In this document: positions 35,105 to 52,606 of the stretch, one piece after another
How the letters are laid out: each line of letters opens with the position of its first letter
Position numbering within the stretch: the stretch's first letter is position 1
From: Pseudomonadota bacterium
GTDB lineage: Bacteria > Desulfobacterota > Syntrophorhabdia > Syntrophorhabdales > Syntrophorhabdaceae
Assembly (NCBI GenBank): GCA_026388255.1
Contig: JAPLKC010000084.1
Coordinates: 1 to 64,000, forward strand
Reading direction: 5' to 3'
Length of the DNA: 64,000 bases
Position numbers and translations under genes: made by a program
The notes under the pieces: generated by a model
Databases searched by the model: none
Told to the model about the DNA's origin: nothing
What the model saw: the letters and a program-made list of their open reading frames with translations, nothing else

Positions 35105-35336
35105 ATTTTATAACCTTCTCTTTTATTATTCCGGGCGGTTTATTATAACATGAAACCCCGTGTAGCTCCAAAAGAATATAATGACAGTGGCGGCAGGAAA
35201 AATTACCTTGACCGCGTCATGAACGTCAAAGTAAAATAGCACACTAAAATAATTTTGAATTGTGAATTTTGGATTGCTGATTTTTTAAATCCAACATCTA
35301 AAATCTTAAATCTAAAATCTTTTCATGAGGTGATAC
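35105..35336. other. Divergent intergenic region, nothing specific seen
   Basis: The region separates the minus-strand run from the plus-strand metallo-hydrolase gene and must hold both promoters. AT-rich direct repeats of AAATCTAAAATCTT type occur near 35290-35320. GAGGTGATAC is the ribosome site of the next gene. Confidence 0.35.
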
Positions 35337-36062
35337 ATGGCTAATATAATAAATGGAGTTTATTTTATTCAGGGACAGGATGAATTCCTTCCCGATTCCC
35401 ATGTCTATGTGATAGGCGAGCCATCATCGAATGACCTTTCGATTATTGATGTGGGGCTGACAGGAAAGGGTGCTTATAAAATCCAGTCTATTCAAAATAT
35501 GGGGATTGAGCTTTCGGCAATCAAGCGGATTATCATGACGCATACCCATTTAGACCATATCGGCTGCTTATCCGAGATAAAAAAACATATTCCCCATGCC
35601 GAACTCTGGGTGCATAAACTTGAAGCAGAATTACTGGAAAAAGGCGACGACAGGGGCGTATACGGCATGAATGAGTTTAAAGGCATGTGTCAGATGCAGT
35701 TTGGTCTGAAACCTGACTCATTTACCCTTACAGTAGAGCGCAAGCTTCAAGGCGGTGAAACCCTGGAGATAGGCAACATGATCTGGGAGGTAATCCACAT
35801 TCCAGGGCATTCAATGGGCGGGATAGCCCTTTACAGTCCTTCTTTGGAAGTGCTTATCCCCGGAGATGTAATCTATGCAGATAATGCCATAGGTCGTTTT
35901 GACCTTTTTGGCGCAAATCCGGATGAATTGAAGAAATCCCTTTACCTGCTTGCCGGACTGAAGGTTGACATCCTTCTTCCCGGTCATAATCAGATTGTAA
36001 AGGGACTCCCCGAAGGATATATCAAAAAAGTGGCAAAAACATGGGAACCATACCTGACATAG
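35337..36062 (+). CDS. Metallo-beta-lactamase fold hydrolase
   Basis: The 241-residue product has the full metal-binding set: THTHLDHIG near residue 66, HIPGHSMGG near 150, LIPGDVIY near 173 and LLPGHNQIV near 220. This is the glyoxalase II-like branch. Substrate is unknown; related enzymes hydrolyse thioesters, lactones or phosphodiesters. It stands alone, with GAGG seven bases before the ATG. Confidence 0.92.
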   Translation: MANIINGVYFIQGQDEFLPDSHVYVIGEPSSNDLSIIDVGLTGKGAYKIQSIQNMGIELSAIKRIIMTHTHLDHIGCLSEIKKHIPHAELWVHKLEAELLEKGDDRGVYGMNEFKGMCQMQFGLKPDSFTLTVERKLQGGETLEIGNMIWEVIHIPGHSMGGIALYSPSLEVLIPGDVIYADNAIGRFDLFGANPDELKKSLYLLAGLKVDILLPGHNQIVKGLPEGYIKKVAKTWEPYLT

Positions 36063-36071
36063 GGCATAGCA

Positions 36072-36248
36072 TCAGGGAAAACAACCCAACTGACAGCCGA
36101 AAACCTTGATCTTCAGTTCATTCAGCATCTCCCCCAGTTCCTTTGAGGGGATATTCTCTTCCTCAGCAATATTGAGGGCCTGCTTGCAGGCAATCTTACC
36201 ATCCTTCGTGTGCGCATTAATCTTTTCAATGACCGCCTCTTTATTCAT
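36072..36248 (-). CDS. Small conserved-looking protein with CxxxC end, unknown function
   Basis: The frame has 58 codons from the ATG at 36248, preceded by GAGGAGA at good spacing, and stops at 36072. The product begins MNKEAVIEKINAHTKDGKIA, contains the helical CKQALNIAEEENIPSKELGE stretch and ends in FGCQLGCFP. The composition is protein-like and the helix-turn-helix feel of the central part suggests a small DNA- or protein-binding fold. The GCQLGC end could bind a metal. I do not know the family. It lies convergent with the metallo-hydrolase gene. Confidence 0.65.
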   Translation of the reverse strand: MNKEAVIEKINAHTKDGKIACKQALNIAEEENIPSKELGEMLNELKIKVFGCQLGCFP

Positions 36249-36337
36249 CGTTCTCTCCTCATTTTTAAATCTTTCTTTATTTAATTATCTACCGATATCC
36301 CACCGAAGTCAACTGCCATTGCAAGACAGGATACAAG

Positions 36338-37279
36338 CTATTGCAAGGACAAGATACTGTTTTGCTTGATCCGTTTATGACAGATTTCGGAAAGTTCTCT
36401 CAGCCGTATAAGAGACGTTGCATGTGAAGCCGCACGTTGAAGGTTCATGAGTCCAACAGGAATATAACCAAGGAAGGTTTTTAGCCCCTTTTTCAACCCC
36501 AGAAAGCCATAGGCCCCAAGCGCTTGCATAAGACGCTGCGCCGAAGCCTCCCAGAAGGCATTCTGGAAATCGGGCCAATCAATGATCTGTTTTGACAGCC
36601 GGTAATAAAACAGGAGGAGATTATCAACCTCATCTTCGGAAAACCTTACATAAGGATCACAAAGCAACGAGCCAATATCGTAAAAGGGGCTTCCAAAGCG
36701 CATCCCCTGAAAGTCAATGAGAAAAGGTTCTCCGTCGCGAATCATCACGTTCTGGGATTGCAGGTCGCGGTGAACAAGCGTGCGTCCTTTTTCAACAAGC
36801 CGCCGGGCAAGATCAGAAAGTTCTGCCTCAATTTCATGCCATAGGGGCGTTTCCATGTCAATTCCACAGATACCGTTTACAAAATGTTCCCTGAAGTAGT
36901 TCTGCTCCCAGCGATAGAGTTCAGGATCAAAACCGTCCATGAGCCTCACCTGCTCCCGGGGGAAATCACTTTCAGGAAATAAATGGAGTCTATGTACAAT
37001 CGAAAGTGTCTTCTGATAAAGTCCCTGTCTGGTTTCCCAGGGAGTATCTTTTAGAGACCAGAGATTTGCATCCCCCATGTCTTCCATGAGCATGAGACAG
37101 GCTGCCGGATCATGGCTGATCATTAAAGGCACAGGGATATAGATGCTTCGGAGGAATATCGCAATATCGGCATAGTACACGTTTTCTATGCGATTCGGGT
37201 TGTATTGAATCAGGATAGCCGAATCCTTGTCATTCCATTTCAAGCGAAAAAAATTACGATCCGACCCTCTTATTGCCAA
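36338..37279 (-). CDS. Aminoglycoside phosphotransferase-fold kinase, AmgK-like
   Basis: AmgK phosphorylates N-acetylmuramate or N-acetylglucosamine at the anomeric position in wall recycling. The visible 313 residues have MEDMGDANLWSL, the catalytic LVHRDLQSQNVMI (HxD...N) and the metal-binding FLIDFQGMRFG. The frame stays open upstream of the TTG at 37279 to beyond 37360 and encodes a natural-looking N-terminus (KLTNFARDALGL), yet that stretch has no ATG, GTG or TTG. True initiation may be at a rare codon such as the ATA at 37360, or there may be a small sequence error. It directly follows a MurU-like gene, the partner enzyme in the known pathway. Confidence 0.8.
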   Translation of the reverse strand: MAIRGSDRNFFRLKWNDKDSAILIQYNPNRIENVYYADIAIFLRSIYIPVPLMISHDPAACLMLMEDMGDANLWSLKDTPWETRQGLYQKTLSIVHRLHLFPESDFPREQVRLMDGFDPELYRWEQNYFREHFVNGICGIDMETPLWHEIEAELSDLARRLVEKGRTLVHRDLQSQNVMIRDGEPFLIDFQGMRFGSPFYDIGSLLCDPYVRFSEDEVDNLLLFYYRLSKQIIDWPDFQNAFWEASAQRLMQALGAYGFLGLKKGLKTFLGYIPVGLMNLQRAASHATSLIRLRELSEICHKRIKQNSILSLQ

Positions 37280-37356
37280 AGGAGTAAACTCTATGAAGAC
37301 CGATGTTGAAAGTCCCAGGGCGTCCCGCGCAAAATTGGTCAGCTTTTCATCGGTTT

Positions 37357-38088
37357 TTATAAGTCCTCCCTGCCGGTCTCCATAGCTGCCTTTAAATTTT
37401 CGTATGCCTCAATGGAACCGATATCGTACCACTGGCCTTCGTCTATAATAACCCCCCGGATAGACCCCGGTTCCTCAGCTATTCTTTTAAGAAAGGCAGG
37501 GATGATGGATTCAATTTTACCCGGTTCAAGAAAACGGAGAAATGATGTCTCCAGGGCATAAATGCCGGTAAAAAGACAACTTTGAACACCTTTGTTTTTT
37601 AATTTATGCCGCATATCACAAATCTCGCCAAGCTCATTGATATTTACATTCAACAAAGGGCCGCTGCTTCGCAGTGCAAGCGTCGCCTCAGGTCGTTTTT
37701 CTTCATGGGATTGCAAAAACCTCTGCAAGGAGAAATTGCTCATCACGTCCCCGTTATAGCAAAGGATAGCTTCGTCATCATCAAGGAGGTCTTCAATGTT
37801 TTTTAATCCTCCTGCAGTGTCCAGAAGCACCGGTTCATGACTAAAAACAATGGGTGCACCTTGCCAGAGCCTGTCCGGGAATTTTTCAGCATAGACCTCC
37901 GGACAATGATGGGTATTTATAATGAAACGGTCAACACCGTTTTTCAGGAGGTGATCCATCGTATAGGTAATAACAGGACGTCCTCCGATCTCAAGGAGCG
38001 GCTTCGGACATCGCTCGGTCAGGGGGCGAAGCCGCATACCCAGACCGGCGCCCAGGATAAAGGCCGTCTTAAACCGTCGTCCTTTCAA
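37357..38088 (-). CDS. Sugar-1-phosphate nucleotidyltransferase, MurU-like
   Basis: The 243-residue product has the nucleotidyltransferase signature [29 protein letters not shown] at residues 9-37, with the catalytic G-x-G-x-R-L-x-P-L-T and [11 protein letters not shown] near 115 supplies the metal-binding aspartate, and [10 protein letters not shown] closes the domain. MurU makes UDP-MurNAc from MurNAc-1-phosphate; related enzymes act on glucose, mannose or GlcNAc phosphates. The tight link to an AmgK-like kinase and a SpoIID-type protein favours wall recycling. It overlaps the SpoIID gene by four bases (ATGA). Confidence 0.85.
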
Positions 38089-39503
38089 TAGATCCTCTGT
38101 ATTTCAGTACCCGGGAAATAATGCCTCAGGATTTCCTCTGCTGAAAAACCCTGTGTTGCCATAACAGCAGCGCCGATCTGGCAGAGCCCTACGCCGTGCC
38201 CCCAACCAGCGCCGTGAAATACAAAAGTCTTAACTTCACCGTGAGTGTCATATTCCATAGTTACAATAAAAGCACTGCTATAGAGGTGACTCCTGGAAAG
38301 CCAGCGCCGTATTTCAAGTTCTTTTCCCACAACCATGCTTTTTTTCGAACCGATGATCCTCAGCCTGAAGATACGTCCTGAGGGGCCACGGGACAGAGGC
38401 TGAATCTCCTTTAGCGTCCCGAAATCAATACCCGATTTTTCCAGGAGAATTTCTTCCAATTCCTCCCGCGTATATTCAATCTTCCAGCGGAAAAACGCCT
38501 TTGTTTCTTGGTCAAAGTCGGGAAGGACCTTTGTGAGAATATTCGCATCTTCCGTGTTGCAATAGGCATTTGGTTCCGAAAGGATCCAGCGTGCCGCATC
38601 TTCCTCTGTCACAATCGGGAGACAGGTTGTTGTTGCATCTGAAATACTTGCCAGATATGGGACCTGATTATCGCTCCAGGCTGTTTCAAATGCCTCTGTT
38701 ATTCCCCCGCATGCCTTTGAATACCGGGCATCGCAGATTTCTCCCCGGTAAATAATTGCCAGCCCGCAGGTTTCCAGAACTGATTCTCCGGCATGAGCCG
38801 AGGCAATCTTTGTAACACCCTGATAGCGCTGGCAGTGGTCATCGGCACATACATCATATAGGTCATGGTCTTCCTGTTCATACCAGCGTGTGATCTCATT
38901 GTGCGAGCTGAAGAGGTTATCAGGGGCTTGTCCGTGTGAATCTTTTGTCCCCGGTTCTGCAACGAACACCTTTTTTGTTTTCCTTTTTCGATCCAGTGCT
39001 GCAATAAGCCAGCTTCTGGAAATAATTGCGTGCGCCTTCAGGAATTCCATAGGGGCATTGCTGCTCATCTCAGAAGAAACCACGCTCTTCAGATAATCCT
39101 CCAGAGGTATTTCATCGATTGCCGCTATTGTTCCACCATCACGGTATTTAAGGATCAGGTTCCCCTGAAAGGTCTGATTCTCTTTCCTCTCCCAGTGAAA
39201 CTGTTTTCCGATAGTCACTTGAAATAGTGTAAACGTCGAATCTTTATCGGCTATGAGCCTGATCGCTGAGGCACAGGCAATTTCACGGTTATTATCGCCG
39301 GTCAGTACAATATTACCGGACGTTGCCTTTGCTGAAAATATGCCTGACACAGGGCCAAAACCATCCCCGTAAAAATTACCATTCAGACAACCGCTAACCT
39401 CAACCTGCCCGTCAATAATCCCTACAGTCATTGTCGGTTCATTCAATCCATATATAGAGGATTCAAGGATACCGGGCATAATGGATATGTTTTCTGAAAT
39501 CAT
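38085..39503 (-). CDS. SpoIID/LytB domain protein, probable peptidoglycan-active enzyme
   Basis: SpoIID proteins are lytic transglycosylases that cleave denuded glycan strands. The 472-residue product has the core motif [17 protein letters not shown] near residue 130, with the catalytic Glu, then [27 protein letters not shown] and [12 protein letters not shown] lie mid-domain, and [17 protein letters not shown] near 435 is the conserved end motif. No signal peptide is visible at the N-terminus, which is unusual for a wall enzyme. It opens a three-gene run with MurU-like and AmgK-like genes. It is longer than typical SpoIID (about 340) by an N-terminal beta-rich part. Confidence 0.88.
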
Positions 39504-39922
39504 TTATTTACTCCATTCATTTTCTTCATACGACAGGGATACTTAGCTTCAAGCATCATGGATTGTTTTTAGAAATCATTCCGCTCAATCCCTTGGCCCC
39601 TTTTTATAGATAATTTTAAGAGTATTACTGCCATATATAACAGGATAAAAAAGGAATGAATATTTATAATATATTCAGCACATTATGCAAAATGATAGCA
39701 ACCTCTTTTTTATCCTGTTATATATGGCATTTTATCACAATCCGTTAGAAAATGGTTAGAAGAAAAGCTGAGGTATCAACACACACAAGACCCCGCTTAG
39801 AAATAGGCGGAACTTTCTTTCTTCCTGAACTAAATAAATCACGCTATAATCAGGCATACTCGCTTCCAAATACAAATCTACTCCATACGCATTCGATGGA
39901 GCTTGTTGATAACCGAATGTAA
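39504..39922. other. AT-rich intergenic region, no gene
   Basis: Apart from the inverted repeat at 39629-39729, no coding or RNA feature is supported. A minus-strand open frame at 39756-40061 runs into the group II intron-like stretch and lacks coding character. Confidence 0.4.
39629..39729. repeat. Perfect 24-bp inverted repeat
   Basis: Positions 39629-39652 (TGCCATATATAACAGGATAA...) are exactly complementary to 39706-39729, with 53 AT-rich bases between. The ends TGCC/GGCA lie outermost. It could be a tiny transposable element end pair, a recombinase or operator site, or a strong hairpin. Confidence 0.8.
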
Positions 39923-40210
39923 GTGCGCCACGAGGTTGCATGACAGATAAGGGCGGGCCCCTCGGAGCCAATTTGCAGGAACAGGCTTTAAAACACCTTA
40001 AACTGCATTGGTAAAGAGCCATTGTGGTGAGCGTTTTTATAGACCGAGCGGCACCCGGCATGGAGGCGGCGGGAACTTGATTCAGGCTTTCATGTGCAAC
40101 GTGGGAACCTGTAGTTCGATGATAAGGGAGAAATCAAGTGGACGACCCATAAGGATGAGAGCGCCGACGCATTCAGGATAGCGACCGACCGTTGTCTTAG
40201 GTGCCATTGT
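39923..40210 (+). mobile_element. Probable 5' fragment of a group II intron (no maturase)
   Basis: The stretch starts with GTGCGCCACGAGG, matching the GUGYG 5' end of bacterial group II introns. It continues with structured, GC-rich sequence of the kind seen in intron domain I, including GCATTGGTAAAGAGCC and GCAACGTGGGAACCTG, then AAGTGGACGACCCATAAGG. Similarity is from memory, not a search. No reverse transcriptase frame and no domain V-like hairpin follow before 40260, so this would be a truncated remnant. The orientation would be plus. Another structured RNA is possible. Confidence 0.4.
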
Positions 40211-40267
40211 TTTTTCGTGTGTATCTGGAGAAAATAAACGAGGGTAACAGGCTAGGCGAGTTTGACT

Positions 40268-40479
40268 TAGAATTTTTCTAATATTTAGACAAATTTAATC
40301 ATTAAAAGACATGTCGCAATCAAAATTCATAATTTCCTTTCTTCTGCTTTTTATTTATAACTCACTGAGTTAAAAGAACAATATTCGTACAGGAAGTTTC
40401 AATACAGTTTATCCTCACCATTTGGCACGGGGCTTGCTTATGTAAAGATATCAAATCATTTAAGGAGGAAAAGAAAATG
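40268..40479. repeat. Promoter-leader repeat, copy A
   Basis: About 212 bases here match 48389-48602 in direct orientation, roughly 85 percent by eye, ending at the start codons of the genes that follow. The copies share two small palindromes (TAGAATTTTTCTA at the left end and AACTCACTGAGTT near 40361), a sigma-54 promoter and the ribosome site AAGGAGGAAAAG. The palindromes are candidate activator sites. Confidence 0.85.
40423..40437 (+). promoter_or_regulatory. Sigma-54 promoter A
   Basis: TGGCACGGGGCTTGC matches the -24/-12 consensus TGGCAC-N5-TTGC with the GG and GC pairs separated by exactly ten bases. It lies 40 bases before the ATG of 40477-41124. Sigma-54 promoters need an AAA+ activator; none is encoded in the window. 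Confidence 0.88.
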
Positions 40480-41124
40480 TCTATCTCAGGATATTCAGAA
40501 ACGAAAGGCATCAATGAAGCAACTGCAGAGAGATATTGCCTTGCAAATGATCAACCCGTAACCTCATTCAAGGTAAGGCGACCGCTTGGTCTGATGAAAA
40601 ATGAAGAGTGGTTAGCCAGCATAACACCCAGTTCCGTACAGTTCTTTCTGCCTCAAAGCAACAAGCAAATCACTATTTCAAAGGAAACGGCTAATGCTCA
40701 CATTCAGTTTCCCCGTGAATTTACTTTTTTCCCGAGCGGTATGGTACATATCAGGCATGAAAGGGAACTATACAAATTTATTTTAGATAAAGCCGACTGG
40801 TCAAGATTGTTTGGATGGCTACCCAAGAAGGCAGCTTCTGATTTGAAAAACGAACTTCGGAAGTGGGGTCTCGGGCTTATAGCACTGGGCTTTATCCACC
40901 TTGTGTTGACCAATTTTCTGGATCCTATCTGGGGCGTGCTGATAATAGTTATTGGTGCTTTAAACCTTTTAATTCATAGAAGAGGAATGTTTATAGTTAA
41001 CGGGATAGTACTACTGTTGGCAGGTGTTATGAATATGGCTGCGGGTGGAGGCTGGAAATTCTTTGGGATGATACAGATCGTGTGGGGTGTACAGGAGATC
41101 CGCAAACTGAGGGAATATGAATAA
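40477..41124 (+). CDS. Membrane protein of unknown function under a sigma-54 promoter
   Basis: The 215-residue product starts nine bases after AAGGAGG. Residues 1-130 look cytosolic, with beta-rich segments such as SVQFFLPQSNKQITISKE and FTFFPSGMVHIRHERELYKF. The rest has three or four hydrophobic segments (about 130-150, 150-165, 170-185, 190-205), including WGVLIIVIGALNLLIHRRG and GGGWKFFGMIQIVWG. I do not recognise a family. It lies directly upstream of the kinase-ClpP-kinase cassette, from which it is separated by 134 bases carrying a separate promoter, so it may be an accessory of it. Confidence 0.7.
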   Translation: MSISGYSETKGINEATAERYCLANDQPVTSFKVRRPLGLMKNEEWLASITPSSVQFFLPQSNKQITISKETANAHIQFPREFTFFPSGMVHIRHERELYKFILDKADWSRLFGWLPKKAASDLKNELRKWGLGLIALGFIHLVLTNFLDPIWGVLIIVIGALNLLIHRRGMFIVNGIVLLLAGVMNMAAGGGWKFFGMIQIVWGVQEIRKLREYE

Positions 41125-41165
41125 ATATCAGGAGAATCAAGGACTGTGTCTGATAATTAGTTTTC

Positions 41166-41194
41166 TTGACTTTAAGGGGTGGGTATTTTATAAC
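41166..41194 (+). promoter_or_regulatory. Sigma-70-type promoter of the kinase cassette
   Basis: TTGACT (41166-41171) and TATAAC (41189-41194) are separated by 17 bases, 65 bases before the kinase ATG. This would allow the cassette to be expressed without sigma-54. Confidence 0.6.
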
Positions 41195-41258
41195 ATATCT
41201 AAATCACAGACATATTCTCCAACCAATGAATCTATAAAGAGCATAGGGGAGGCATGCT

Positions 41259-44200
41259 ATGAGTTTATTCTCAAACCTGTTTAGCAAGGGAAGGAATAAG
41301 AAGTTAGACATCCCGATAACTAAGCTGACACCCTTGCTTGCCAAAAAACCTCTGCCTGAAAAAGACAGCACCCAGATAAGAATTCCAGCCTCGCCTGAGA
41401 AAAAAGACCCAGAACCCTGGGTAGCGAAGAACGTACCTGTCTGGGAGCCCGGCGATGTAGTGCTTGACCACTACAAAATAGAATATGTCATCACCTCAGG
41501 CGGCATGGGACTTATCTATATTACCAATCACCAGAACTGGAAGGTTAAGATTGCCATCAAATCCCCAACAGAGGAGATGCTTCAAGACAGAGACTTCTTT
41601 TCACAAGTTCAGAAAGAGGCAGAGGCATGGACAGAGCTTGGATTGCATCCCAATATTGCCTATTGCTACTTTGTCAGAAACATAGAGGAAGTCCCTCATA
41701 TCTTTGTTGAGTATGTAGATGGAGGGAACTTAAAACAGTGGATAGAAGATGGCAAGTGCGCAGACCTGAAGACAGGACTTGACCTTGCAATACAATTCTG
41801 TCATGGCATGGCACATGCCCACAGCAAAGGAATGATACACAGGGATATCAAGCCCGCAAACATCTTAATGACACAGGACGGGACATTAAAAGTAACAGAT
41901 TTTGGGATAGCAAAGTGGTTAAGGATAGATGAATCAGGCAATTTGCATGAACGCTCTGGAGTTGATCTCGGAGGCAAGACAACTGAATATGCTTCACCGG
42001 AGCAGTTCATAGATGAATTTAATGTCGGTCCTGAGACAGATATCTTTTCATTTGGATTATGTCTTTGGGAGATGCTCTGCGGCAAGAAACCTTATGACAA
42101 AGCTGTAGTCAAAGAAGTGATTCCCAATCCGAGGAAATTAAGGCATGACCTCCCGGAAAGCTTACACCAACTTCTTGAAGAGCTTGTTGCATTTGAGAAG
42201 GAAGAAAGACAGAAGCTCGGGGGGTTTGAAGGACTGAGGGAACGATTCAAAACAATCTATCAGGAGCTATTCGACAACAAGCCCTCGCCTCACAGTGAGC
42301 TGGAGAAGATTGATCTTGAGGCTGACGGGTTGAACAACAGGGGAGTGTCTTACTGGGAGATCGGGAAAAAAGACGAAGCATTAAAATGTTTCAGGAAAGC
42401 TCTGGAAAAAGATTCTATTCATCCGCATGCTACTTATAATCTTTCACTAATAGAGTGGAGGAACGGCCAGATAGATGACGCTGAAGTATTAAGAAGGCTC
42501 GCAAACTGCGAAAGCAATACATCAAATAAAGAAATCATTAAAGAACTGACTGCATACATCCATGCAGAGAGGTTTGATCCGGAATCAGCAGAAGAGACAT
42601 TAAGAGACCTGCCCGGAAGATATCAAGCCATGTTCTCAGGAAATAAGCCGAGCCATATAAAGTGCATACGCACCATGGAAGGACATACTGATGATGTCAG
42701 TTCAGTAGTAATCAGCCCTGATAACAGATATGCGATTTCAGGGAGTGGGGATATGACCATAAAGCTCTGGGAAATAGGGACAGGTAGATGTATACGCACT
42801 ATGGAAGGACATACTGGTTCTGTCAGTTCCGTAGCCATCAGCCCTGATGGAAGATATGCACTTTCAGGGAGTTTTGATAAGACCTTAAAGCTCTGGGAAA
42901 TAGGGACAGGTAGATGTATACGCACCATGGAAGGGCATGCTGGAGCTGTCTATTCAGTAGCCATCAGCCCTGATAGCAGGTATGCGCTTTCAGGAAGTGA
43001 AGATAAGACCTTAAAGCTCTGGGATTTAGAGACAGGCAGGTGCATACGCACTATAGAAGGACATACTGGTTCTGTCAGTTCCGTAGCCATCAGCCCTGAT
43101 GGAAGATATGCGCTTTCAGGGAGTAATGACAATACCTTAAAACTATGGGAAATAGAGATAGGCAAGTGTATACGCACCATGGTAGGACATACTAATTATG
43201 TCCGGTCAGTAGCCATCAGCCCTGATAACAGGCATGCGCTTTCAGGAAGTTTAGATATGACCTTGAAGTTCTGGGAAATAGAGACAGGTAAGTGCATACA
43301 CACTATGGAAGGACATACTGATTTTGTCGATTCGGTAGCCATCAGCCCTGATGGCAAGCATGCGCTTTCAGGAAGTAGGGATAAGACCTTGAAGTTGTGG
43401 GATTTAGAGACAGACAGGTGCATACGCACTATGGAAGGACATACTCATTGGGTCGCTTCAGTAACCATCAGCCCCGATAGCAGGTATGCGCTTTCAGGAA
43501 GTTGGGATGAGACCTTAAAGCTCTGGGAGATAAATTATGAGTCTGGCTATACAACAGAGCTCCAGCCTTCAGAGCCCAAGGGATTTAATATCAGGAGGGA
43601 AGAAGAAGAATCACTAAGAAGATCTATCTCAGAGGCAAAGACGCTCTTTGAAAAAGGGGATTACAAGGGGTCTTATTCAGCGCTGTATGAGCAATGGAAA
43701 GGTATCGGGTTTATCAGCAAAGACGATATATTAGAAATCTATTCTATGCTGTCTCAGAAGGCAAGGAGAAGAGGGCTTGGTTTACATTACTGTGAAAAGG
43801 ACTTTAAAGGACATACTCAAAATGTCACTTCAGTAGCCATCAGCCCTGATAACAGGTATGCGCTTTCAGGAAGTGTGGATCGTGTGGATCGTACCTTGAA
43901 GCTCTGGAATATAGAGACAGGCAGGTGCATACGCACCATGGAAGGACATACTCGCTCTGTCCATTCAGTAGCCATCACCTCTGATTGCAGGCATGTGCTT
44001 TCAGGAAGTTGGGATAGTACCATAAAGTTCTGGGATTTAGAGACAGGCGAGTGCATACGCACTATGAAAGGACATACTGATTGGGTCTCTTCAATATCCG
44101 TCAGCCCTGATAACAGATATGCGATTTCAGGGAGTGGGGATATGACCATAAAGCTCTGGGAAATAGGGACAGGTAGATGTATACGCACTATGGAAGGACA

Positions 44201-44903
44201 TACTTCTGCGGTCTTGTCAGTAGCCATCAGCCCTGATAACAGGCATGCGCTTTCAGGGGGTGGGAATATTCTTTCAGAAAGTAGTGACAATACGTTAAAA
44301 CTCTGGGACATAGAGACAGGCATGTGCATACGCACCATGGAAGGACATACTAATGCTGTCTATTCAGTAGCCATCAGCCCTGATAACAGGTATGCGCTTT
44401 CAGGAAGTAGTGATAGTACATTGAAGCTATGGGATTTGGAGACAGTCAGGTGCATACAAGTTATGGAAGGACATGCTGATTCTGTCCGTTCAGTAGCCAT
44501 CAGCCCAGATAGCAGGTATGTGCTTTCAGGGAGTAATGACAATACCTTAAAGCTCTGGGAGATAGAGACAGGAAGGTGTATACGCACCATGGAAGGACAT
44601 ACTCGCTCTGTCAATTCAGTAGCCATCAGCCCTGGTAACAGGTACGCGCTTTCAGGAAGCGGGGATAAGGCATTGAAGCTCTGGTGCCTCATATGGGATC
44701 TGGAATTTCCGGAGCCCGTTGACTGGGATGAAGGCGTCAGGCCATATCTTGTGGTATTCCTCACATTGCATAAAGGCAAATGGAACGAAGCTAATTTCAA
44801 TAAACTGATTCATGAACTCGCATCCATGCGCGGTTATGGATGGGTAAAACCCGAAGGCATACGAAAAGAGCTGGAAAAAATGACAAAGGAATATAAAAAA
44901 TAA
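41259..44903 (+). CDS. Ser/Thr protein kinase with two seven-bladed WD40 propellers
   Basis: The 1214-residue product has a 64-residue N-terminal linker and a Hanks-type kinase domain (about 65-345). The glycine loop ITSGGMGLIY is unusual, but the Lys in KIAIKSP, the catalytic MIHRDIKPANILMT, VTDFGIAKW and ASPEQF are all present, so activity is expected. A TPR-like pair follows (about 365-410). Fourteen WD40 repeats of 42 residues come in two sets of seven (about 468-760 and 848-1145), with consensus GHT..V.SVAISPD.RYALSGS.D.TLKLW. A 90-residue helical linker (about 760-848) and a 70-residue C-terminal domain follow. It lacks membrane segments. The start has GGGGAGG upstream. It leads a run with the ClpP-like and second kinase genes. 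Confidence 0.93.
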   Translation: MSLFSNLFSKGRNKKLDIPITKLTPLLAKKPLPEKDSTQIRIPASPEKKDPEPWVAKNVPVWEPGDVVLDHYKIEYVITSGGMGLIYITNHQNWKVKIAIKSPTEEMLQDRDFFSQVQKEAEAWTELGLHPNIAYCYFVRNIEEVPHIFVEYVDGGNLKQWIEDGKCADLKTGLDLAIQFCHGMAHAHSKGMIHRDIKPANILMTQDGTLKVTDFGIAKWLRIDESGNLHERSGVDLGGKTTEYASPEQFIDEFNVGPETDIFSFGLCLWEMLCGKKPYDKAVVKEVIPNPRKLRHDLPESLHQLLEELVAFEKEERQKLGGFEGLRERFKTIYQELFDNKPSPHSELEKIDLEADGLNNRGVSYWEIGKKDEALKCFRKALEKDSIHPHATYNLSLIEWRNGQIDDAEVLRRLANCESNTSNKEIIKELTAYIHAERFDPESAEETLRDLPGRYQAMFSGNKPSHIKCIRTMEGHTDDVSSVVISPDNRYAISGSGDMTIKLWEIGTGRCIRTMEGHTGSVSSVAISPDGRYALSGSFDKTLKLWEIGTGRCIRTMEGHAGAVYSVAISPDSRYALSGSEDKTLKLWDLETGRCIRTIEGHTGSVSSVAISPDGRYALSGSNDNTLKLWEIEIGKCIRTMVGHTNYVRSVAISPDNRHALSGSLDMTLKFWEIETGKCIHTMEGHTDFVDSVAISPDGKHALSGSRDKTLKLWDLETDRCIRTMEGHTHWVASVTISPDSRYALSGSWDETLKLWEINYESGYTTELQPSEPKGFNIRREEEESLRRSISEAKTLFEKGDYKGSYSALYEQWKGIGFISKDDILEIYSMLSQKARRRGLGLHYCEKDFKGHTQNVTSVAISPDNRYALSGSVDRVDRTLKLWNIETGRCIRTMEGHTRSVHSVAITSDCRHVLSGSWDSTIKFWDLETGECIRTMKGHTDWVSSISVSPDNRYAISGSGDMTIKLWEIGTGRCIRTMEGHTSAVLSVAISPDNRHALSGGGNILSESSDNTLKLWDIETGMCIRTMEGHTNAVYSVAISPDNRYALSGSSDSTLKLWDLETVRCIQVMEGHADSVRSVAISPDSRYVLSGSNDNTLKLWEIETGRCIRTMEGHTRSVNSVAISPGNRYALSGSGDKALKLWCLIWDLEFPEPVDWDEGVRPYLVVFLTLHKGKWNEANFNKLIHELASMRGYGWVKPEGIRKELEKMTKEYKK
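42660..44690 (+). repeat. WD40-coding tandem repeats, 126-bp unit, two arrays of seven
   Basis: The first array fills 42660-43541 at exactly 126 bases per unit, the second about 43797-44690 with two units lengthened by small insertions. A 104-bp segment at 42712-42815 recurs with no mismatch at 44101-44204, linking blade 1 of the first propeller with blade 3 of the second. This points to recent recombination between the arrays. Confidence 0.9.
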
Positions 44904-44921
44904 AACAACGGAGGTTTTATT

Positions 44922-45512
44922 ATGGGAATTTTAAGAATGCCGTATGTTTTAGAACAGACGCCGCAGGGACAGAGGCAGTTGGATATTTATACGAGGCTTT
45001 TGACTGACAGAGTGGTTTTTCTGACAGGTGAGATCAATGATGATGTGGCAGATGTTATTATTGCCCAGTTTTTTTATCTGGAGTCAGCAGAGAGTAAAAA
45101 GGATATTTATTTTTACATCAACAGCCCCGGTGGAGTGGTAACGGCAGGTCTGGCTATTTACGACACCATGCAGTATATCTCCTGCGATGTGGCAACCATC
45201 TGTCTTGGCCAGGCGGCATCCATGGGCGCTGTGCTTTTAGCTGCCGGGGCCAGGGGAAAGAGGATGGCAATGCCCAATGCCAGAGTAATGATTCATCAGC
45301 CTCTTGGCGGAGCGCAGGGGCAGGCGTCTGATGTTGAGATACAGGCAAAGGAAATGGTCAGGATGAAGCAGCGGTTAAATGAAATCCTTGTTGAGCATAC
45401 ATGCCAGTCCATGGAAGTAATCAGAAAGGATACAGATAGAGATTTTTTTCTGACGGCTGAAGAGGCAGTGGAATATGGTCTTATAGATAAAGTGATAAAA
45501 AAGAGAAGCTGA
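44922..45512 (+). CDS. clpP: ClpP-type serine protease subunit within kinase cassette
   Basis: ClpP forms a barrel peptidase that degrades proteins fed by Clp ATPases. The 196-residue product has [20 protein letters not shown] near residue 67, the catalytic Ser in [11 protein letters not shown] near 98, His in VMIHQPLGG near 123, and Asp in KDTDRDFF near 172, so the triad is intact. The N-terminal loop [19 protein letters not shown] is typical for docking a Clp ATPase. No clpX, clpA or tig is nearby, so this is probably an extra paralogue and not the housekeeping copy. It lies 18 bases after the WD40 kinase and 48 before the TPR kinase. Confidence 0.94.
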
Positions 45513-45560
45513 TAGATTCTCACCCCAAATGAAATATAAAGGGCATAAGGAGAACATGTT

Positions 45561-47771
45561 ATGAGCTTTTTCTCGGACATTAAAAAGCTTTTTAAGAAAG
45601 AACAGCCTGCCCATGCAGCAGGAAAAGATGAGGCAGCTATCCCTGCCAAAGCGCCAAACAAGGGTGGAACCGTCTTACGTAAACCGGATGAAGTTGAGCC
45701 AATTGTTGAAAACAGGTCAGATGAGGATGCCGAGGCTTCTCCATGGAAGGTCGATAGAATCATCCTAAATGAGTACATTATTGAGCGTGAATTGGGTCAA
45801 GGCGGTATGGGAACCGTGTATCTGGTTGCAAAAAGAGCATCCGATGGCACCCGCTTTGCGGTAAAGACGCTTCTTTCATCAGTGCTTAAAGATGAGATAT
45901 ATAAGAATCTATTCATGAAAGAACTCAGGACATGGATAGAGCTTCCCGAACATCCTCACATCACAGCCTGCAGGTTTTTCCGCACGGTGGATGACCGGCT
46001 CGCCATCTTTGCGGAATACATAGACGGCGGCACGCTCCGTGACTGGATCAGGGGAAAGAAGCTCAACAGTCTTGAGAAGATACTTGATGCTGCAATTCAA
46101 ACCGCATGGGGTCTTGAGGCAGCGCACACTCAAGGCGTGATTCATCAGGACATGAAGCCTGCCAATGTGCTTATGACCAAAGACGGCACTGCCAAGATTA
46201 CTGATTTTGGCCTTGCCCGTGCGAAAAACACCCTTGGTGTGGACAGGCTGACGGGGGACATACCAAAATCCGCAGGAGTAAGCACCCTCGGCATGACTAA
46301 GGAGTATTGTTCACCTGAGCAGGCAGCCTGGCAGGAACTTGCGCACAAAACAGACATATGGAGCTGGGGGCTTTCAGTATTTGAGATGTTTAAAGGCTCT
46401 GCAACATGGGGGCCTGGAACCATTGCCATGCATGCCCTTGAAGAATACATTAAAAGCAAGCCTGCTCCTGATCTTCCCAGGTTGCCTGAAAGCGTAGCAG
46501 CAGTATTGAGGCGCTGTTTTGAGGATGAGCTTTCAAAGCGCTGGGATAATTTAGGAGAAGCAGCAAAGGAACTTATAGAAATTTACCGAAAGGAAACAGG
46601 CAAGGAATATCATCGCAAGAAACCTGAAATAAAGTCCCGGCAAGGCCTTGAAGATATTACCCATGACCGAAGGACAATAAGAGGTACAAAGTGGGAGGAT
46701 CCGAGGGTGCATCTTGCAGAGGCATTGAAGCTCTCGGGCCGTGATCAGTCTGAGCTTGAGGCTCTACTAAAGGAGCAGAAGGGTTCAAGAAAGGCGCAGG
46801 CGCTTCTGGATCTGGAAGTGTATGAACGGGTTTTGAGTCTACATTCTAACCTAATAGAACAGGGGAGAAAGGAATTCCAAACAACTCTTGCATCGCTTTT
46901 AGTCCACAAGGCATTTGTTCATGAAGACGTAGCTGATGTTCCGGGGGCTATTGCGATGTATGATAAGGCGATACAGATATATGAGAGGCTTGTGAACGAG
47001 GAGGGCAAGACTGAGCCTTCAAATGCCCTTGCTGATGTCTACATCAACAAGGCAAATGCGGTAATGCAGCTTGGAGACAACCGTTTTGCAGCAGAGATAT
47101 CTGATAAGGCGATACAGATATATGAGAGGCTTGTGGACGAGGAGGGTAAGACTGAGTTTTCAAATAATCTTGCCAGGGTCTACATGAACAAGGCAATTGC
47201 CGTAAGTGCCCTTGGAGACAACCGTTTTGCAGCAGAGATATCTGATAAGGCGATACAGATATATGAGAGGCTTGTGGACGAGGAGGGTAAGACTGAGTTT
47301 TCAAATGGTCTTGCCACGGTCTACATGAACAATGCAGTTGCCGTAAGTGCCCTTGGAGACAAGCTTTCTGCGGTAGAGCTATATGAGAAGGCGATACAGA
47401 TATATGAGAGGCTTGTAAACAAGGAGGGTAAGACTGAGTTTTCAAATGGTCTTGCCACGGTCTACATGAACAAAGCAGTTGCGGTAATGCAGCTTGGAGA
47501 CAACCGTTTTGCAGCAGAGATATATGAGAAGGCGATACAGATCAGGGAGAGGCTTGTGAACAAGGAGGGCAGGACTGAGCTGACAGGTGATCTGGCATGG
47601 GTAAAGATATACAAGGCGACTGTTTTAGATATTTTGGGAGAGACACAAAAGGCAAGAGAAGAATTTCAGCAAGCCTTGCCTGCCCTGCGCAAAGAGGTGC
47701 AAAGCACACGCCGGGCTGATCTTGCGAATGTGTTGAAATGGGCAGAGACAAATTTGCAGCACCTTATGTGA
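45561..47771 (+). CDS. Ser/Thr protein kinase with TPR repeats
   Basis: The 736-residue product starts MSFFSDIKKLFKKE, echoing the MSLFSNLFSKGRNKK start of the WD40 kinase. The kinase domain (about 72-340) has ELGQGGMGTVYLV, AVKTLL, VIHQDMKPANVLM and ITDFGLARA. The catalytic Asp and DFG are present, but the HRD arginine is glutamine, a change seen in non-RD kinases. TPR-like repeats (about 440-720) include five units of exactly 47 residues with consensus KAIQIYERLV and FSNGLATVYMNKAVAVSALGD. It has no membrane segment. AAGGAG precedes the ATG. Together with the ClpP-type protease and the other kinase it forms a compact three-gene cassette. Confidence 0.93.
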   Translation: MSFFSDIKKLFKKEQPAHAAGKDEAAIPAKAPNKGGTVLRKPDEVEPIVENRSDEDAEASPWKVDRIILNEYIIERELGQGGMGTVYLVAKRASDGTRFAVKTLLSSVLKDEIYKNLFMKELRTWIELPEHPHITACRFFRTVDDRLAIFAEYIDGGTLRDWIRGKKLNSLEKILDAAIQTAWGLEAAHTQGVIHQDMKPANVLMTKDGTAKITDFGLARAKNTLGVDRLTGDIPKSAGVSTLGMTKEYCSPEQAAWQELAHKTDIWSWGLSVFEMFKGSATWGPGTIAMHALEEYIKSKPAPDLPRLPESVAAVLRRCFEDELSKRWDNLGEAAKELIEIYRKETGKEYHRKKPEIKSRQGLEDITHDRRTIRGTKWEDPRVHLAEALKLSGRDQSELEALLKEQKGSRKAQALLDLEVYERVLSLHSNLIEQGRKEFQTTLASLLVHKAFVHEDVADVPGAIAMYDKAIQIYERLVNEEGKTEPSNALADVYINKANAVMQLGDNRFAAEISDKAIQIYERLVDEEGKTEFSNNLARVYMNKAIAVSALGDNRFAAEISDKAIQIYERLVDEEGKTEFSNGLATVYMNNAVAVSALGDKLSAVELYEKAIQIYERLVNKEGKTEFSNGLATVYMNKAVAVMQLGDNRFAAEIYEKAIQIRERLVNKEGRTELTGDLAWVKIYKATVLDILGETQKAREEFQQALPALRKEVQSTRRADLANVLKWAETNLQHLM
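46962..47666 (+). repeat. TPR-coding tandem repeats, 141-bp unit, five copies
   Basis: Units begin at 46962, 47103, 47244, 47385 and 47526, each exactly 141 bases apart, with GATACAGATATATGAGAGGC near each start. The near identity of units two and three implies recent expansion. They are coding and in frame, not a CRISPR array. Confidence 0.88.
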
Positions 47772-47853
47772 AGTCTCTGATGAGACAAGAAAAACTCTAC
47801 ACAAAAATGGACAGGACAAACATATAGGTGCCCTGGCGACAAGGAGGGAACAT

Positions 47854-48294
47854 ATGCATTTCGTCATAACTGTGCTGGGCATCGCGGCGGGTGTCTGGTT
47901 TGGCATTCGCTCTGAAGTGTATTTTCCAATGATTCTTGTGTGGGCCATGGGCGGAGCTTTCGTGACGATTATGACTGCTACGCTTTCGGTGCCGACCTCG
48001 GTGAATGCCTTTCAGGGTCACCCGGATCCCGACATGAGCCCTGAGCAATATTCCCGGGGCATCGCTGTGTTGTTCTTTGTCGCAGCCGGGTTCTTTATCA
48101 TCTTCACCCCGAGCAATTTGAAGGGACCCTTCCTTGGATGGGCGAATCCTGCGATTCCATCGGCTCTCCAGTGGGGCAGTCTCATGAGTGTGATTCGCCT
48201 TAAGAATCCGCGAGTTAATCTCACTGTCCTTGGAATATTTTTCTGGCTCTCGATTGCCGGGGCATTCTGGGTCTATCCGTTGCAGCAACGGTAG
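47854..48294 (+). CDS. Membrane protein of unknown function
   Basis: The 146-residue product has four hydrophobic segments (about 2-22, 26-46, 68-88, 120-140), with a loop rich in Pro and Asp (HPDPDMSPEQYSRG) between the second and third. AAGGAGGG precedes the ATG. I do not recognise the family. It is 82 bases after the TPR kinase and GC-richer than the kinase genes, so it may be separate in origin. Confidence 0.65.
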   Translation: MHFVITVLGIAAGVWFGIRSEVYFPMILVWAMGGAFVTIMTATLSVPTSVNAFQGHPDPDMSPEQYSRGIAVLFFVAAGFFIIFTPSNLKGPFLGWANPAIPSALQWGSLMSVIRLKNPRVNLTVLGIFFWLSIAGAFWVYPLQQR

Positions 48295-48599
48295 GTAGCG
48301 CGTACGTTTTGCTTACGAATGCCCCATAGTAAAGGGATAGACAGCAGGAAGCGGGATAGGATTAAAGCTCTGCAGCTTCTATGGGATTTAGAATTCTTCT
48401 AAAATTTAGACAAATTCCATCATGAAAATACATCTGCTGCAATCAAGTTCATAATTGCCCTTCTTCTGCTTTGTATATATAACTCACCGAGTTAAAAGAA
48501 CAATATTCGTACAGGAAGTTTCAATACAGTCTATCCTCACCATCTGGCACAGGATTTGCTTAATGTAAAGATATCAAATCATTCAAGGAGGAAAAGAAA
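48295..48599. other. Intergenic region carrying the second promoter-leader repeat
   Basis: From 48389 the sequence is the second copy of the promoter-leader repeat; 48295-48388 shows nothing specific. Confidence 0.5.
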
Positions 48600-48602
48600 A
48601 TG
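48389..48602. repeat. Promoter-leader repeat, copy B
   Basis: The stretch is the direct repeat of 40268-40479. It keeps TAGAATTCTTCTA, AACTCACCGAGTT, the run AACAATATTCGTACAGGAAG and the ribosome site. The two copies bracket about 8 kb that includes the kinase-ClpP-kinase genes. Confidence 0.85.
48545..48559 (+). promoter_or_regulatory. Sigma-54 promoter B
   Basis: TGGCACAGGATTTGC fits the -24/-12 consensus with ten bases between GG and GC. It lies 41 bases before the ATG of 48600-48869. Confidence 0.87.
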
Positions 48603-48869
48603 TCAATGAACAGTATAGTACTTCGTAATATGAAGTGTACGTTACTGTCTTTAGCAATAGTTTTAACGCATGGATGCGGCGGGGTAATTATTCTTATACC
48701 AATTCGCTATCTATTAATAAACATCATTAATATGAAATATCTAATATATCAACATGATGAGTTATGCTTTATTTATCCTATGATGATAGCTAATTGGTAT
48801 CAGTCGCCGAGAACTGATATTGAAACTTGTGCACTTATACAGATCAACGAGAAAATAATAAGCAATTAA
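48600..48869 (+). CDS. Small protein of unknown function under a sigma-54 promoter
   Basis: The 89-residue product starts nine bases after AAGGAGG, directly behind promoter B. Residues 8-35 are hydrophobic with a LTHGCGG stretch that could be a lipoprotein-like or membrane segment. The rest (YLIYQHDELCFIYPMM) has no match I know. Only its first codons resemble the gene after promoter A, so the promoter was copied without its gene or the genes diverged. Confidence 0.5.
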   Translation: MSMNSIVLRNMKCTLLSLAIVLTHGCGGVIILIPIRYLLINIINMKYLIYQHDELCFIYPMMIANWYQSPRTDIETCALIQINEKIISN

Positions 48870-48890
48870 CAGTGAGGCCATAGAAGAAGA

Positions 48891-49688
48891 ATGAATGCCT
48901 GGCTCAAGAGTATACTCAAGCGACCGTTTATCATGATCACAATCGCCTTCCTCGTATTGGTTCATGGTGGTTCTACCTATCTTCAAGTCCCTATAATCGC
49001 GTCAGCGGAGTATAGTCGGAATGCTTTTGACCTCAGCGTTACGGCGAAGTGGAGATATGGCTATGTCGTCGAACACCATGGGGCATTCCTGGTGAAAGCG
49101 CGTAATATACCGGAAACCGTGCCATATCTCGACCCCGGGTTGTCTGAGGACAAAGAGCTTGCTTCTGCAATGTCACGCAAACTTGAGACGTATCCCTTGA
49201 GAGCTGCACTTGAAGCTCTTTTTTACTCATTTCTTGTCGGGTATGCTTTATTCCTGGTGCCATGGCTGAGAAGCAAGTTTGCTGCCAAGAATTCACGTTA
49301 CAGCCATGGGACTCTTTTCGAAGGTGCGGTATGGGCACTGGGCTGGACATTGGCATGTCTGCCGCTTATCTGTTTTGGGTATGGATCATCACTTTTCTCA
49401 ACGTGGGCTGGACCTGGTGCTTCAGGGTACAGCGGTCCTTATCCAGGCCTCATTACGGGGCTATCCGGCGAAACCATCACCTACCGCCCGCTTCTTGAGG
49501 GCGCCAGCATCATTCCGATGATTGCCGTTGAGGCAACCGGTCTGGGCCGGTGTCTTCCCGAGATGACCATGGGACTATTTGTCTGGATCTCTGGTGTTCT
49601 GTTCTATTGTACGGTAGCTTTCCTGGTCTGGGGAGCCGTATGTTTAATTGATGCTCTCGTTGCAAAACACAATGACAGGCAAAATTAA
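48891..49688 (+). CDS. Membrane protein of unknown function
   Basis: The 265-residue product has a membrane segment at about 14-32, an extracytoplasmic part (about 35-100), and further segments at about 105-125, 145-170 and 230-255. Residues in the middle (GYGSSLFSTWAGPGASGYSG) are glycine-rich. No family is recognised. The ribosome site before 48891 is weak (GAAGAAG). It follows the small sigma-54-driven gene after 21 bases and may be its partner. Confidence 0.6.
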   Translation: MNAWLKSILKRPFIMITIAFLVLVHGGSTYLQVPIIASAEYSRNAFDLSVTAKWRYGYVVEHHGAFLVKARNIPETVPYLDPGLSEDKELASAMSRKLETYPLRAALEALFYSFLVGYALFLVPWLRSKFAAKNSRYSHGTLFEGAVWALGWTLACLPLICFGYGSSLFSTWAGPGASGYSGPYPGLITGLSGETITYRPLLEGASIIPMIAVEATGLGRCLPEMTMGLFVWISGVLFYCTVAFLVWGAVCLIDALVAKHNDRQN

Positions 49689-49708
49689 GGTTTGATGAGT
49701 GTGAAACG

Positions 49709-49822
49709 TGTGTCAACCCCCAGATAGACGATTGCTTTTTTGCAACCAGACAAGAGGCTATGAAAGACATTACAGAGTACAACGAGATTTTCTATAACGA
49801 CCACAGCAGTGGACTATCCTAA
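49709..49822 (+). pseudogene. IS3-family transposase C-terminal remnant
   Basis: The plus-strand frame here encodes FFATRQEAMKDITEYNEIFYND, the C-terminal integrase-domain signature of IS3-type OrfB transposases. It lacks all upstream catalytic residues and has no start. It is a relic of an insertion now mostly deleted. Confidence 0.75.
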
Positions 49823-49870
49823 AATATAAGGTTATATGATTTTAACCCTTTTATTTGGCATCAGGAGCTC

Positions 49871-50461
49871 GTGAGATTTATGCTTGGGAAACAGATTTAC
49901 CTCATCCCTGGAAGGGGAGAAAAGTTGGATGACACCCTTGGCCGGATACTTAAGATGCTGGGCTATAATTATGAGGGTATGGCATTGACCCTCGATGTTG
50001 AACATTTATGGTTTTCTGAACAACTGGAATTAGTGAGGTCCGATTTGACACTACAGTTCTGGGATGCGGGTTCTGTCTTAATTGGCCGTTCTTACGGAGC
50101 TTATCTGCTTCTTCATACATTAGCAGATATGCCTCCTTTCCCCGGCCGGGTGCTATTATTTTCACCTGTGCTCGGTGCGGCTTCCAGCAAGGATCATCAC
50201 TACGGGTCTATCCCACCCCGTGCCGAAAAACTTTTCAAACTGGCCAAAAGCAATACCTTCCCTGCACCGGCGTATATGGAAATACATACAGGGGCAGAGG
50301 ATCACGACTGTTCCCCGTTGCTGGCGGAGAATTTTAAGTCAGGCGTCAAGAACACTACATTAGTAATGGTAGAGGGAGCTGGTCATAATTTGAGTGAAAA
50401 TTATCTGCGAGATATTCTTATCCAATTTTTTAAAAGGTCATGTGAAGTAGGGCGAAGATAG
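49871..50461 (+). CDS. Alpha/beta hydrolase-fold protein
   Basis: The 196-residue product starts at a GTG at 49871 with AGGAG four bases upstream. It shows an alpha/beta hydrolase pattern: IYLIPGRGEKLDDT near residue 8, the nucleophile elbow LIGRSYGAYLLL (GxSxG) near 70, a candidate acid in AEDHDCSP near 143 and the catalytic His in EGAGHNLSENY near 170. Substrate is unknown. It is short for the fold (usually 250 or more), so the cap is minimal. IS relics on both sides place it in an accessory zone. Confidence 0.75.
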   Translation: MRFMLGKQIYLIPGRGEKLDDTLGRILKMLGYNYEGMALTLDVEHLWFSEQLELVRSDLTLQFWDAGSVLIGRSYGAYLLLHTLADMPPFPGRVLLFSPVLGAASSKDHHYGSIPPRAEKLFKLAKSNTFPAPAYMEIHTGAEDHDCSPLLAENFKSGVKNTTLVMVEGAGHNLSENYLRDILIQFFKRSCEVGRR

Positions 50462-50599
50462 GATTTATAGATATTGCAGGGTGGGAGGACACAATGGCAT
50501 GCTGGGCTGCCTTTATGATTCCATATTTTGGTTTAGGGACCCTGAGCCTTTTATCTTTGTGCTGAAATGCCTGGATAATGTATGCAGGGTCCGCATCCC
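50462..50599. other. Gap between hydrolase gene and transposase relic
   Basis: No gene is seen. On the minus strand it is open for over 40 codons, including RVPKPKYGIIKAAQHAI, probably chance or further transposon relic. Confidence 0.3.
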
Positions 50600-51139
50600 T
50601 TATGAGTCGCGCTGAAGGTATTTCCGTTGAAAGAGAAGCATCACACCACCGAAGACATTACAGATCTTCTCCAGTTCGGGGAAAGTGCTCTTGAGCATCC
50701 TTTTAATGTCGTTCTTTTCCGATCCAATGAGCTATAAGACAAACTTCCTCTCCCTCGCAATATCCTTCAGGTCCATACACTGGTGGACAAAAAACTGATC
50801 CATGGAATCTTTCTGTGCAAAAAGAAATCGTGCTATAGTATGGGCAACCTTCTTATCAGTTTTTGTCTTTCTCAAAGAAAGCTTACTGAAATTTATGATG
50901 AGTAAGGGATTTACAACAATCGTGCGGATTTCTTCTGAAGTCAAGAAAGAGAAAAGGTTCATATGATACGATCCGGTAGATTCCATAGCAACCACAACGT
51001 CAGAGAGATCATTGCTGTTAGAAGAGATTGCCTTCATGCATTCGGAGAAACCGCTTCTGTCCATACCGGCAATAAGAGAAAATATTACATATTCCTTTCC
51101 GTCAATACCGAATACAGAAAATGAATCCTCTGTATTCAA
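50600..51139 (-). pseudogene. IS110-family transposase, truncated and interrupted
   Basis: The frame from 51139 encodes VVVAMESTGSYHMNLFSFL, VVNPLLIINFSKLSLRKTKTD and KKVAHTIARFL, the N-terminal DEDD transposase domain of IS110 elements. A TAG stop at 50734 interrupts it after KFVL; the same frame then reads LIGSEKNDIKRMLK and ends at 50600. A full IS110 transposase has over 300 residues, so the C-terminal half is missing. The first aspartate region is also degraded. Confidence 0.85.
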
Positions 51140-51313
51140 TTAACTTTCTCGTATTTACTGCTTGAAGTTAATATACAATTGATGGATGATAAATACTCGA
51201 GTAGGAAGTCAGTGAAGCAGGAATGTGAAATATAATTATGTTTTCATGGGGGGTATATTGTTTGATGTTTTTATATTTCAGAAGAATACTATGCAGAATT
51301 TCTGTATACTTAA

Positions 51314-52090: not shown

Positions 52091-52374
52091 CATGCTGGCA
52101 TTACGTCGGTCCGCAAAAGCCGGCCTGAACCAGGTGCAGCTTGGTCGTTACTCTCTTTTATACTACAATGTGAACTAACATAAATGATAAGTAGGAGGTG
52201 GCGTCAACAACCGGCAATTTTAATTTTCCCAATGATACTTTCGTACATTACGAGGTGAAAGGCGCTACAAAAGCTTATCTGTCGTAAATCTCGATTACAA
52301 TAAATAATCATTGGATTCATCAAAATGCCCCTATGCTTGCTTTGTAGGTGAATCTAATAATTTTCATAAAACAC
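52091..52374. other. Spacer with possible hydrolase N-terminal relic
   Basis: A plus-strand frame at 52198-52287 reads NFNFPNDTFVHYEVKGATKA, similar to the N-terminal strands of alpha/beta hydrolases, then stops. It follows AGGAGG closely. It is probably a truncated relic at the edge of the right repeat. Confidence 0.4.
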
Positions 52375-52448
52375 ATCCCGTTCTGAAATACTCGACGCAG
52401 GCGGAGCACAGGGTTGCCGGTATGCCCCGCAGAAAAATCGGAAACATC

Positions 52449-52477
52449 TTGACACATTGTTTCTAAATACCTACAAT
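52449..52477 (+). promoter_or_regulatory. Sigma-70-type promoter of the right parB-like gene
   Basis: TTGACA (52449-52454) and TACAAT (52472-52477) with a 17-base spacer form a near-consensus promoter, conserved in the left copy at 499-527. It predicts a leader of about 145 bases. Confidence 0.82.
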
Positions 52478-52524
52478 AAATAGCGACATCAAGGGGGATT
52501 AAAGGCAGTGAATAGTGAAAAAGG

Positions 52525-52606
52525 CAGTGAATAGTGAATAGTAGATAGTGAACAGTGATTAAAGGCAGTAAACAGATTATGACTATCTACTGACGACTAT
52601 TCACTG
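52525..52606. repeat. Imperfect long hairpin in the parB-like leader
   Basis: CAGTGAATAGTGAATAGTAG (from 52525) can pair with 52582-52606, which contains CTACTGACGACTATTCACTG. Extra GTGAATAGT units at 52507-52520 give alternative pairings. Related units also appear after the gene at 53565-53636. Confidence 0.7.

Follow-up and report, generated by a model that had tools for sequence, protein, structure and literature searches.

In the fungus Podospora anserina, the WD40 units of the het-d/het-e (HNWD) genes undergo concerted evolution (PMC1805685). In the sections of that paper drawn on here, Paoletti et al. (PMC1805685) describe codons 7, 9, 25 and 27 of the repeat unit as positively selected around the constrained codons 8 and 26, and excerpts of a second paper report a possible 88-nt conversion tract between WD40 repeats in a mutant Podospora allele (PMC2873952). 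In prokaryotes, highly repetitive WD40 proteins consist of recently amplified blades and fusions of a kinase to WD40 repeats occur (PMC5587647), with the number of blades peaking at 7 and 14 (PMC9218822), as stated in the portions of these papers used here. Those portions describe amplification and low dS, whereas selection on face codons and exchange across a spacer do not appear in them. Blade amplification and kinase-WD40 fusion have precedents; what is newer in the present work is that a bacterial kinase shows the signal of selection. Among the papers listed by our literature searches, none reported diversifying selection on the face codons of a bacterial WD40 array, nor a bacterial kinase that combines cross-propeller conversion with selection on the codons selected in the fungal units.

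The window, the 64-kb stretch of DNA analysed here, encodes on its forward strand, which also carries all features written below in the form start..end, a Ser/Thr kinase with two WD40 propellers (P0001, 1214 aa, 41259..44903), recognised as an open reading frame with 14 Pfam WD40 stretches and kinase matches over residues 65-333. Its parts follow the order kinase, linker, seven WD40 blades, spacer, seven WD40 blades and helical C-terminus. The kinase domain (residues 66-333; 41454..42257) was placed by profile matches and carries the HRD and DFG motifs in translation. The first propeller (blades B1-B7, 42 aa each; 42663..43544) and the second (C1-C7; 43791..44702) were delimited by blade alignment, from which in-frame insertions were omitted (3 aa in C1, 7 aa in C4 and, in the homolog described below, 9 aa in gB1 and 5 aa in gB6). 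Between them lies a spacer (43545..43790) that is partly helical in the AlphaFold2 model, which also supports the helical C-terminal region (44703..44900). The model spans residues 440-1214 and contains two 28-strand groups, each of seven blades with four strands, connected by helices, with pLDDT of at least 90 at 453 of 775 residues; the relative placement of the propellers is not trusted, because the pTM is just 0.47.

The 14 blades are 68.3% identical on average, with a median of 66.7% (91 pairs) that is above the 60% median blade identity used by Pereira 2022 to delimit highly repetitive WD40 proteins. Complete seven-bladed propellers, another mark of that class, are found here as 14 blades in two sevens, in agreement with the two 28-strand groups of the model. 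A Foldseek search with the model returned 2ymu, a "highly repetitive propeller", as the top match and Apaf-1 as the fifth. In its amplified similar blades, kinase fusion, 7/14 blade number and top match to 2ymu, P0001 is like the highly repetitive prokaryotic proteins, as far as the excerpts above describe them. PkwA of Thermomonospora curvata, reportedly a Ser/Thr kinase in part, also joins a WD40 propeller to a kinase in the partial account drawn on here, whereas P0001 has two propellers, a spacer and a helical C-terminal region. The fungal HNWD proteins differ in carrying a NACHT (STAND) domain; in bacterial P0001 no NACHT domain was seen among the 25 of 53 Pfam families listed for it and its neighbours, and a kinase domain is present instead.

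An earlier note on this DNA had claimed an exact 104-bp duplication between the two propellers, lying within otherwise differing blades and produced by gene conversion or by a recent shuffling of units from one array to the other. Direct comparison of the window sequence bears out the duplication: 42712..42815, running from B1 into B2, and 44101..44204, from C3 into C4, are identical base for base, and the tract is maximal, the adjoining base differing at each end. The copies are offset by 1389 bp (463 codons), in frame, within the single 1214-aa gene. Its first base is the second of blade codon 17 in B1 (and C3), and it runs through codon 9 of the following blade, stopping immediately ahead of the first hypervariable codon. 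Among exact direct repeats, to which our ranking was confined, it is the longest of the window, with runners-up of 96 bp (in the neighbouring TPR gene) and 56 bp. Over the 77 tract columns that fall inside the blade, the 91 blade pairs show a mean of 17.4 differences, B1/C3 none and the next-lowest pair 9. The surrounding blades do differ, as the note had stated: outside the tract, 12 of 49 sites differ between B1 and C3 (all-pair mean 10.2), and beyond it 27 of 99 between B2 and C4 (mean 23.7). The tract flanks diverge at the background level.

A full-length, collinear homolog of P0001, 40% identical and with 7+7 blades, was found in a genome of another family (G245). By part, identity is 39% in the kinase, 42% in the linker and 29% in the C-terminus; alignment places a spacer at the matching position, but it gives no significant BLAST match. 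Nine genomes of that family contain no more copies, the only one positive being G245 itself, and across the phylum 3 of 395 genomes match the C-terminal peptide of P0001, its own genome counted and G245 being another. In its own draft genome, all 14 WD40 matches lie inside the P0001 gene, and no further blade-like DNA was found beyond the gene itself. A tree of the 28 blades of P0001 and the G245 homolog splits perfectly by gene (support 0.93 for protein, 0.96 for DNA). Between the two genes, blades at the same position are 47.4% identical and blades at different positions 47.1%, while mean identity within a gene is 68.3% for P0001 and 46.3% for the homolog. Because the G245 blades are mutually no closer than they are to those of P0001, the homogenisation is confined to the window gene. 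There, blade similarity is independent of the propeller (within minus between, -0.003; permutation p 0.65); array membership is without effect, and therefore the spacer is no bar to exchange. The least similar blades are C7, C1 and B7, three of the four blades at array edges. By these comparisons the 14 blades evolve in concert inside one gene, clustering by gene and in this respect like the HNWD units, although exchange takes place among a ten-gene family there and inside one gene here. The 7+7 arrangement in both the homolog and the model favours replacement over insertion.

A recent amplification of one blade that built both propellers, with B1/C3 as the least diverged pair and no later conversion, is unlikely to be the source of the identity, even though such amplification is documented for WD40 proteins in the parts of the two surveys used here (PMC9218822, PMC5587647) and would fit blades that are 68% identical on average. 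Since the G245 blades are unhomogenised, the same picture would also result if a new amplification had filled an old 7+7 frame. However, 12/49 differences on the left, 27/99 on the right and 0/104 inside would make a single unit young and old at once, which requires that a piece of it was copied, and the collinear homolog already has the 7+spacer+7 plan, so that this plan is old. We regard an assembly artefact as very unlikely. The draft genome is in 147 contigs and short-read assembly can go wrong at repeats near 100 bp in length, but the gene sits inside a 90-kb contig, and a collapsed repeat would not be expected to yield copies that keep frame between differing flanks.

Conserved WD40 codons might also make long identical stretches likely by chance, given that 49 of 126 blade columns are invariant, but the permutations make this highly improbable. 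In a GENECONV-style global permutation of variable sites, the B1/C3 run of 47 variable columns was reached in 0 of 2000 permutations, and on permuting whole codons in 80 of 20,000 (p = 0.004, global). B1 and C3 also have zero silent differences across 25 codons, against a pair mean of 3.7; silent differences are absent from five other blade pairs too, but over 11-16 shared codons. One further tract reached global significance, a 56-bp exact repeat of 43056-43111 at 42804..42859 (B2/B4, p 0.019). A 46-bp exact repeat of 44363-44408 at 43829..43874 (C1/C5) did not, nor did any other tract in the global permutation test. We therefore rejected the exact-repeat list as a catalogue of conversion events, with only B1/C3 and B2/B4 globally significant. 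The permutations, the by-gene blade tree and the absence of an array effect on similarity support the earlier proposal that the arrays have exchanged sequence by gene conversion or unit shuffling. Under gene conversion, the 104-bp identity would go back to a recent, non-reciprocal exchange of a short tract between two blades; we infer conversion rather than crossing-over. The B1/C3 exchange would then be one event of an ongoing concerted evolution inside the gene, through which the 14 blades on both sides of the spacer stay similar.

Variation within the blades is concentrated at a few codons. V12 and D30 are constant in the window array, and codons 11, 13, 29 and 31 are within the five most variable columns. 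In the AlphaFold2-modelled blades B1 and C3, a strand begins at codon 12; codons 10 and 11 belong to the loop ahead of it, and codon 13 supplies its second residue. Codons 29 and 31 occupy the turn between one strand ending at 28 and another starting at 32. The selected Podospora codons, as given in the sections cited above, fall on 11, 13, 29 and 31 around V12 and D30 with an offset of 4, which was chosen by pattern, rather than by alignment to a fungal sequence, after the variable columns were seen. To allow for this choice, the fungal pattern was scored in each of its 42 possible registers: the best by far was offset 4 (2dL 59.6; next 12.3), and omega exceeded 1 in 6 of 42. In a scan of single columns, omega was above 1 with 2dL over 3 at codons 10, 11, 13, 29 and 31 only.

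Codon likelihood on the blade tree, which models the blades as a tree although they recombine, gave omega 5.2 at codons 11, 13, 29 and 31 versus 0.42 elsewhere (2dL 41). With the neighbouring columns alone as reference, omega was 5.7. On their own synonymous rate, a test that handles age differences between columns though not all bias, the four columns gave omega 9.8 (p 0.0003); control columns gave 0.68. The observed value was reached in 0 of 1000 bootstrap replicates under omega = 1, and the face columns average 7.75 different residues per column where 3.74 are expected (bootstrap maximum 6.0). The end columns of B7, C1 and C7 were treated as missing in the blade-tree likelihood, in its neighbouring-column, own-rate and control versions and in the 42-register scan, and retained for column variability, the bootstrap and the comparison-array tests; with another kappa and no missing cells, omega was 4.1 in the window array and 7.3 on the own rate (p 0.0009). 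When the tree was built from the 37 other columns, face columns excluded, the free omega of the own-rate test was unbounded and hence unidentifiable, so we relied there on the likelihood ratio and the bootstrap. The suggestion in the earlier note that the propeller surfaces may be diversifying is thus supported by the codon test, with omega about 5 at four face codons in the best of 42 registers; the comparison of synonymous with non-synonymous change that it had proposed for these positions, made among the 14 blades of one gene, gives a strong non-synonymous excess. P0001 shares this excess with the HNWD proteins, whose allorecognition role is established, whereas P0001 is known here from sequence alone. 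With the face codons under diversifying selection, each blade would present contact residues unlike those of the others; at the four face positions, 14 of 14 blades have distinct residue sets.

Three further arrays were used for comparison: the G245 homolog blades and two arrays of a Planctomycetota MAG (L033), of which only regularly spaced units were used (19 and 11). Entropy was higher at the four face columns than in the rest in all three (2.57 vs 1.34, 2.13 vs 0.75 and 2.37 vs 0.73), with codon 13 outside the top nine variable columns in the G245 array. Yet omega at the face columns was 0.78, 0.88 and 1.42, in no array significantly above 1. On the own rate it was 0.17, 0.75 and 0.75, with only the first value differing significantly from 1, on the low side. 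This indicates that WD40 loops ordinarily show much of this variability: the comparison arrays share it, but they do not share the non-synonymous excess. The older array is probably nearer silent saturation, which would lower the power of the test. Targeted mutagenesis by a diversity-generating retroelement (DGR), which diversifies sensors of bacterial conflict systems according to the excerpt of PMC10907252 used here, is a very improbable source of the face variability, since the draft genome offers no second copy of blade DNA as a template, only the gene itself matching, and the variable codons are present in all 14 blades.

Among the matches listed from 59 other genomes, none spanned both the kinase and the propellers of P0001, which were covered separately. 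In the sole same-genus genome (G001), P0001 was matched in its kinase only. Window positions 36076-39767 and 54897-60499 align to G001 at 81-89%, on different contigs and in one case near a contig end; the stretch between these flanks, and 33001-36075, had no blastn match in the two G001 pieces compared. The G001 match breaks off at both borders of the 15-kb stretch 39767-54897, whose flanks are on separate G001 contigs. Of the further relatives L033-L036, L033 and L034 were compared piecewise, using rows above 60 bits: L033 matches P0001 from residue 421 onward, chiefly in the WD40 repeats, and L034 (Nostoc) matches the kinase plus a propeller at about 26-27% identity. Neither the G052 nor the G051 frames gave a significant match to the kinase piece.

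A PADLOC scan of four cassette proteins gave strong matches to defence kinases such as PD-T4-6, confined to the kinase domain. The PD-T4-6 matches reach E-values down to 3e-52 and nearly cover some of the short models (5-259 of 292), but they involve the kinase domain alone and these models have no curated cut-off; any kinase of this type may match them. HEAT-ARM_XIII was the one PADLOC model matching the blades. The NCBIfam defence kinase MAD6 scored 127 bits, far below its curated cut-off of 460, and no defence gene stood out among the neighbouring genes scanned with Pfam.

P0001 is preceded by a probable membrane protein (40477..41124; judged by eye from its hydrophobic stretches, lacking a Pfam match and any relative among the 59 other genomes searched) and followed by an extra, complete ClpP (44922..45512; Pfam), which lies between two kinase genes and is 56% identical to a second clpP on a different contig. 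The second Ser/Thr kinase (45561..47771; open reading frame, Pfam, repeat list) carries a TPR array of 141-bp units, up to 131/141 bases identical, with a 96-bp exact repeat (47070-47165 / 47211-47306) between adjacent units. The gaps of 134, 18 and 48 bp, together with ribosome-binding-like sequences, suggest that the genes for the membrane protein, P0001, ClpP and the TPR kinase form one putative operon. Upstream of it, 40323..40484 is a near-copy (91-96%) of 48445-48607 and contains a sigma-54-like promoter (40423-40438). The second copy, 8122 bp away, also has one (48545-48560). These near-copies of about 160 bp precede two different genes, and their 42-bp upstream element is the same in both; 35 bases of this element, searched with up to 3 mismatches allowed, occur at only these two sites in the draft genome. 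Sigma54_DBD has one match in the genome. The neighbourhood is consistent with a putative regulated signalling cassette. A third repeat-built gene of the same stretch, at 53600-54802, encodes a PQQ/BamB-like propeller of 120-bp tandem units.

Taken together, we consider it probable that gene conversion, continuing concerted evolution and face diversification shaped this array, in what is likely an intracellular receptor kinase. Diversifying selection would act on face codons 11 and 13, 29 and 31, and also 10, over a homogenised framework. The double propeller would bind a variable protein partner and the kinase would relay the signal, perhaps jointly with ClpP and the TPR kinase encoded next to it and expressed from a sigma-54 promoter. 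By analogy with the described systems, a role for P0001 in conflict is plausible. We raise as a possibility, though a rather doubtful one, that this bacterial receptor kinase renews its recognition surface by intragenic conversion among its 14 blades, with the four face codons driven to differ convergently with those of fungal allorecognition NLRs, and that this surface is aimed at phage proteins or rival cells.

What is known of highly repetitive WD40 proteins in bacteria is mainly that their arrays were amplified recently. The codon pattern of P0001 points to selection for differing binding faces within one molecule, at the positions described for fungal self/non-self receptors. If strains confirm this pattern, the variable residues could guide a search for the binding partner, and kinase-WD40 fusions would join the candidate bacterial recognition systems.
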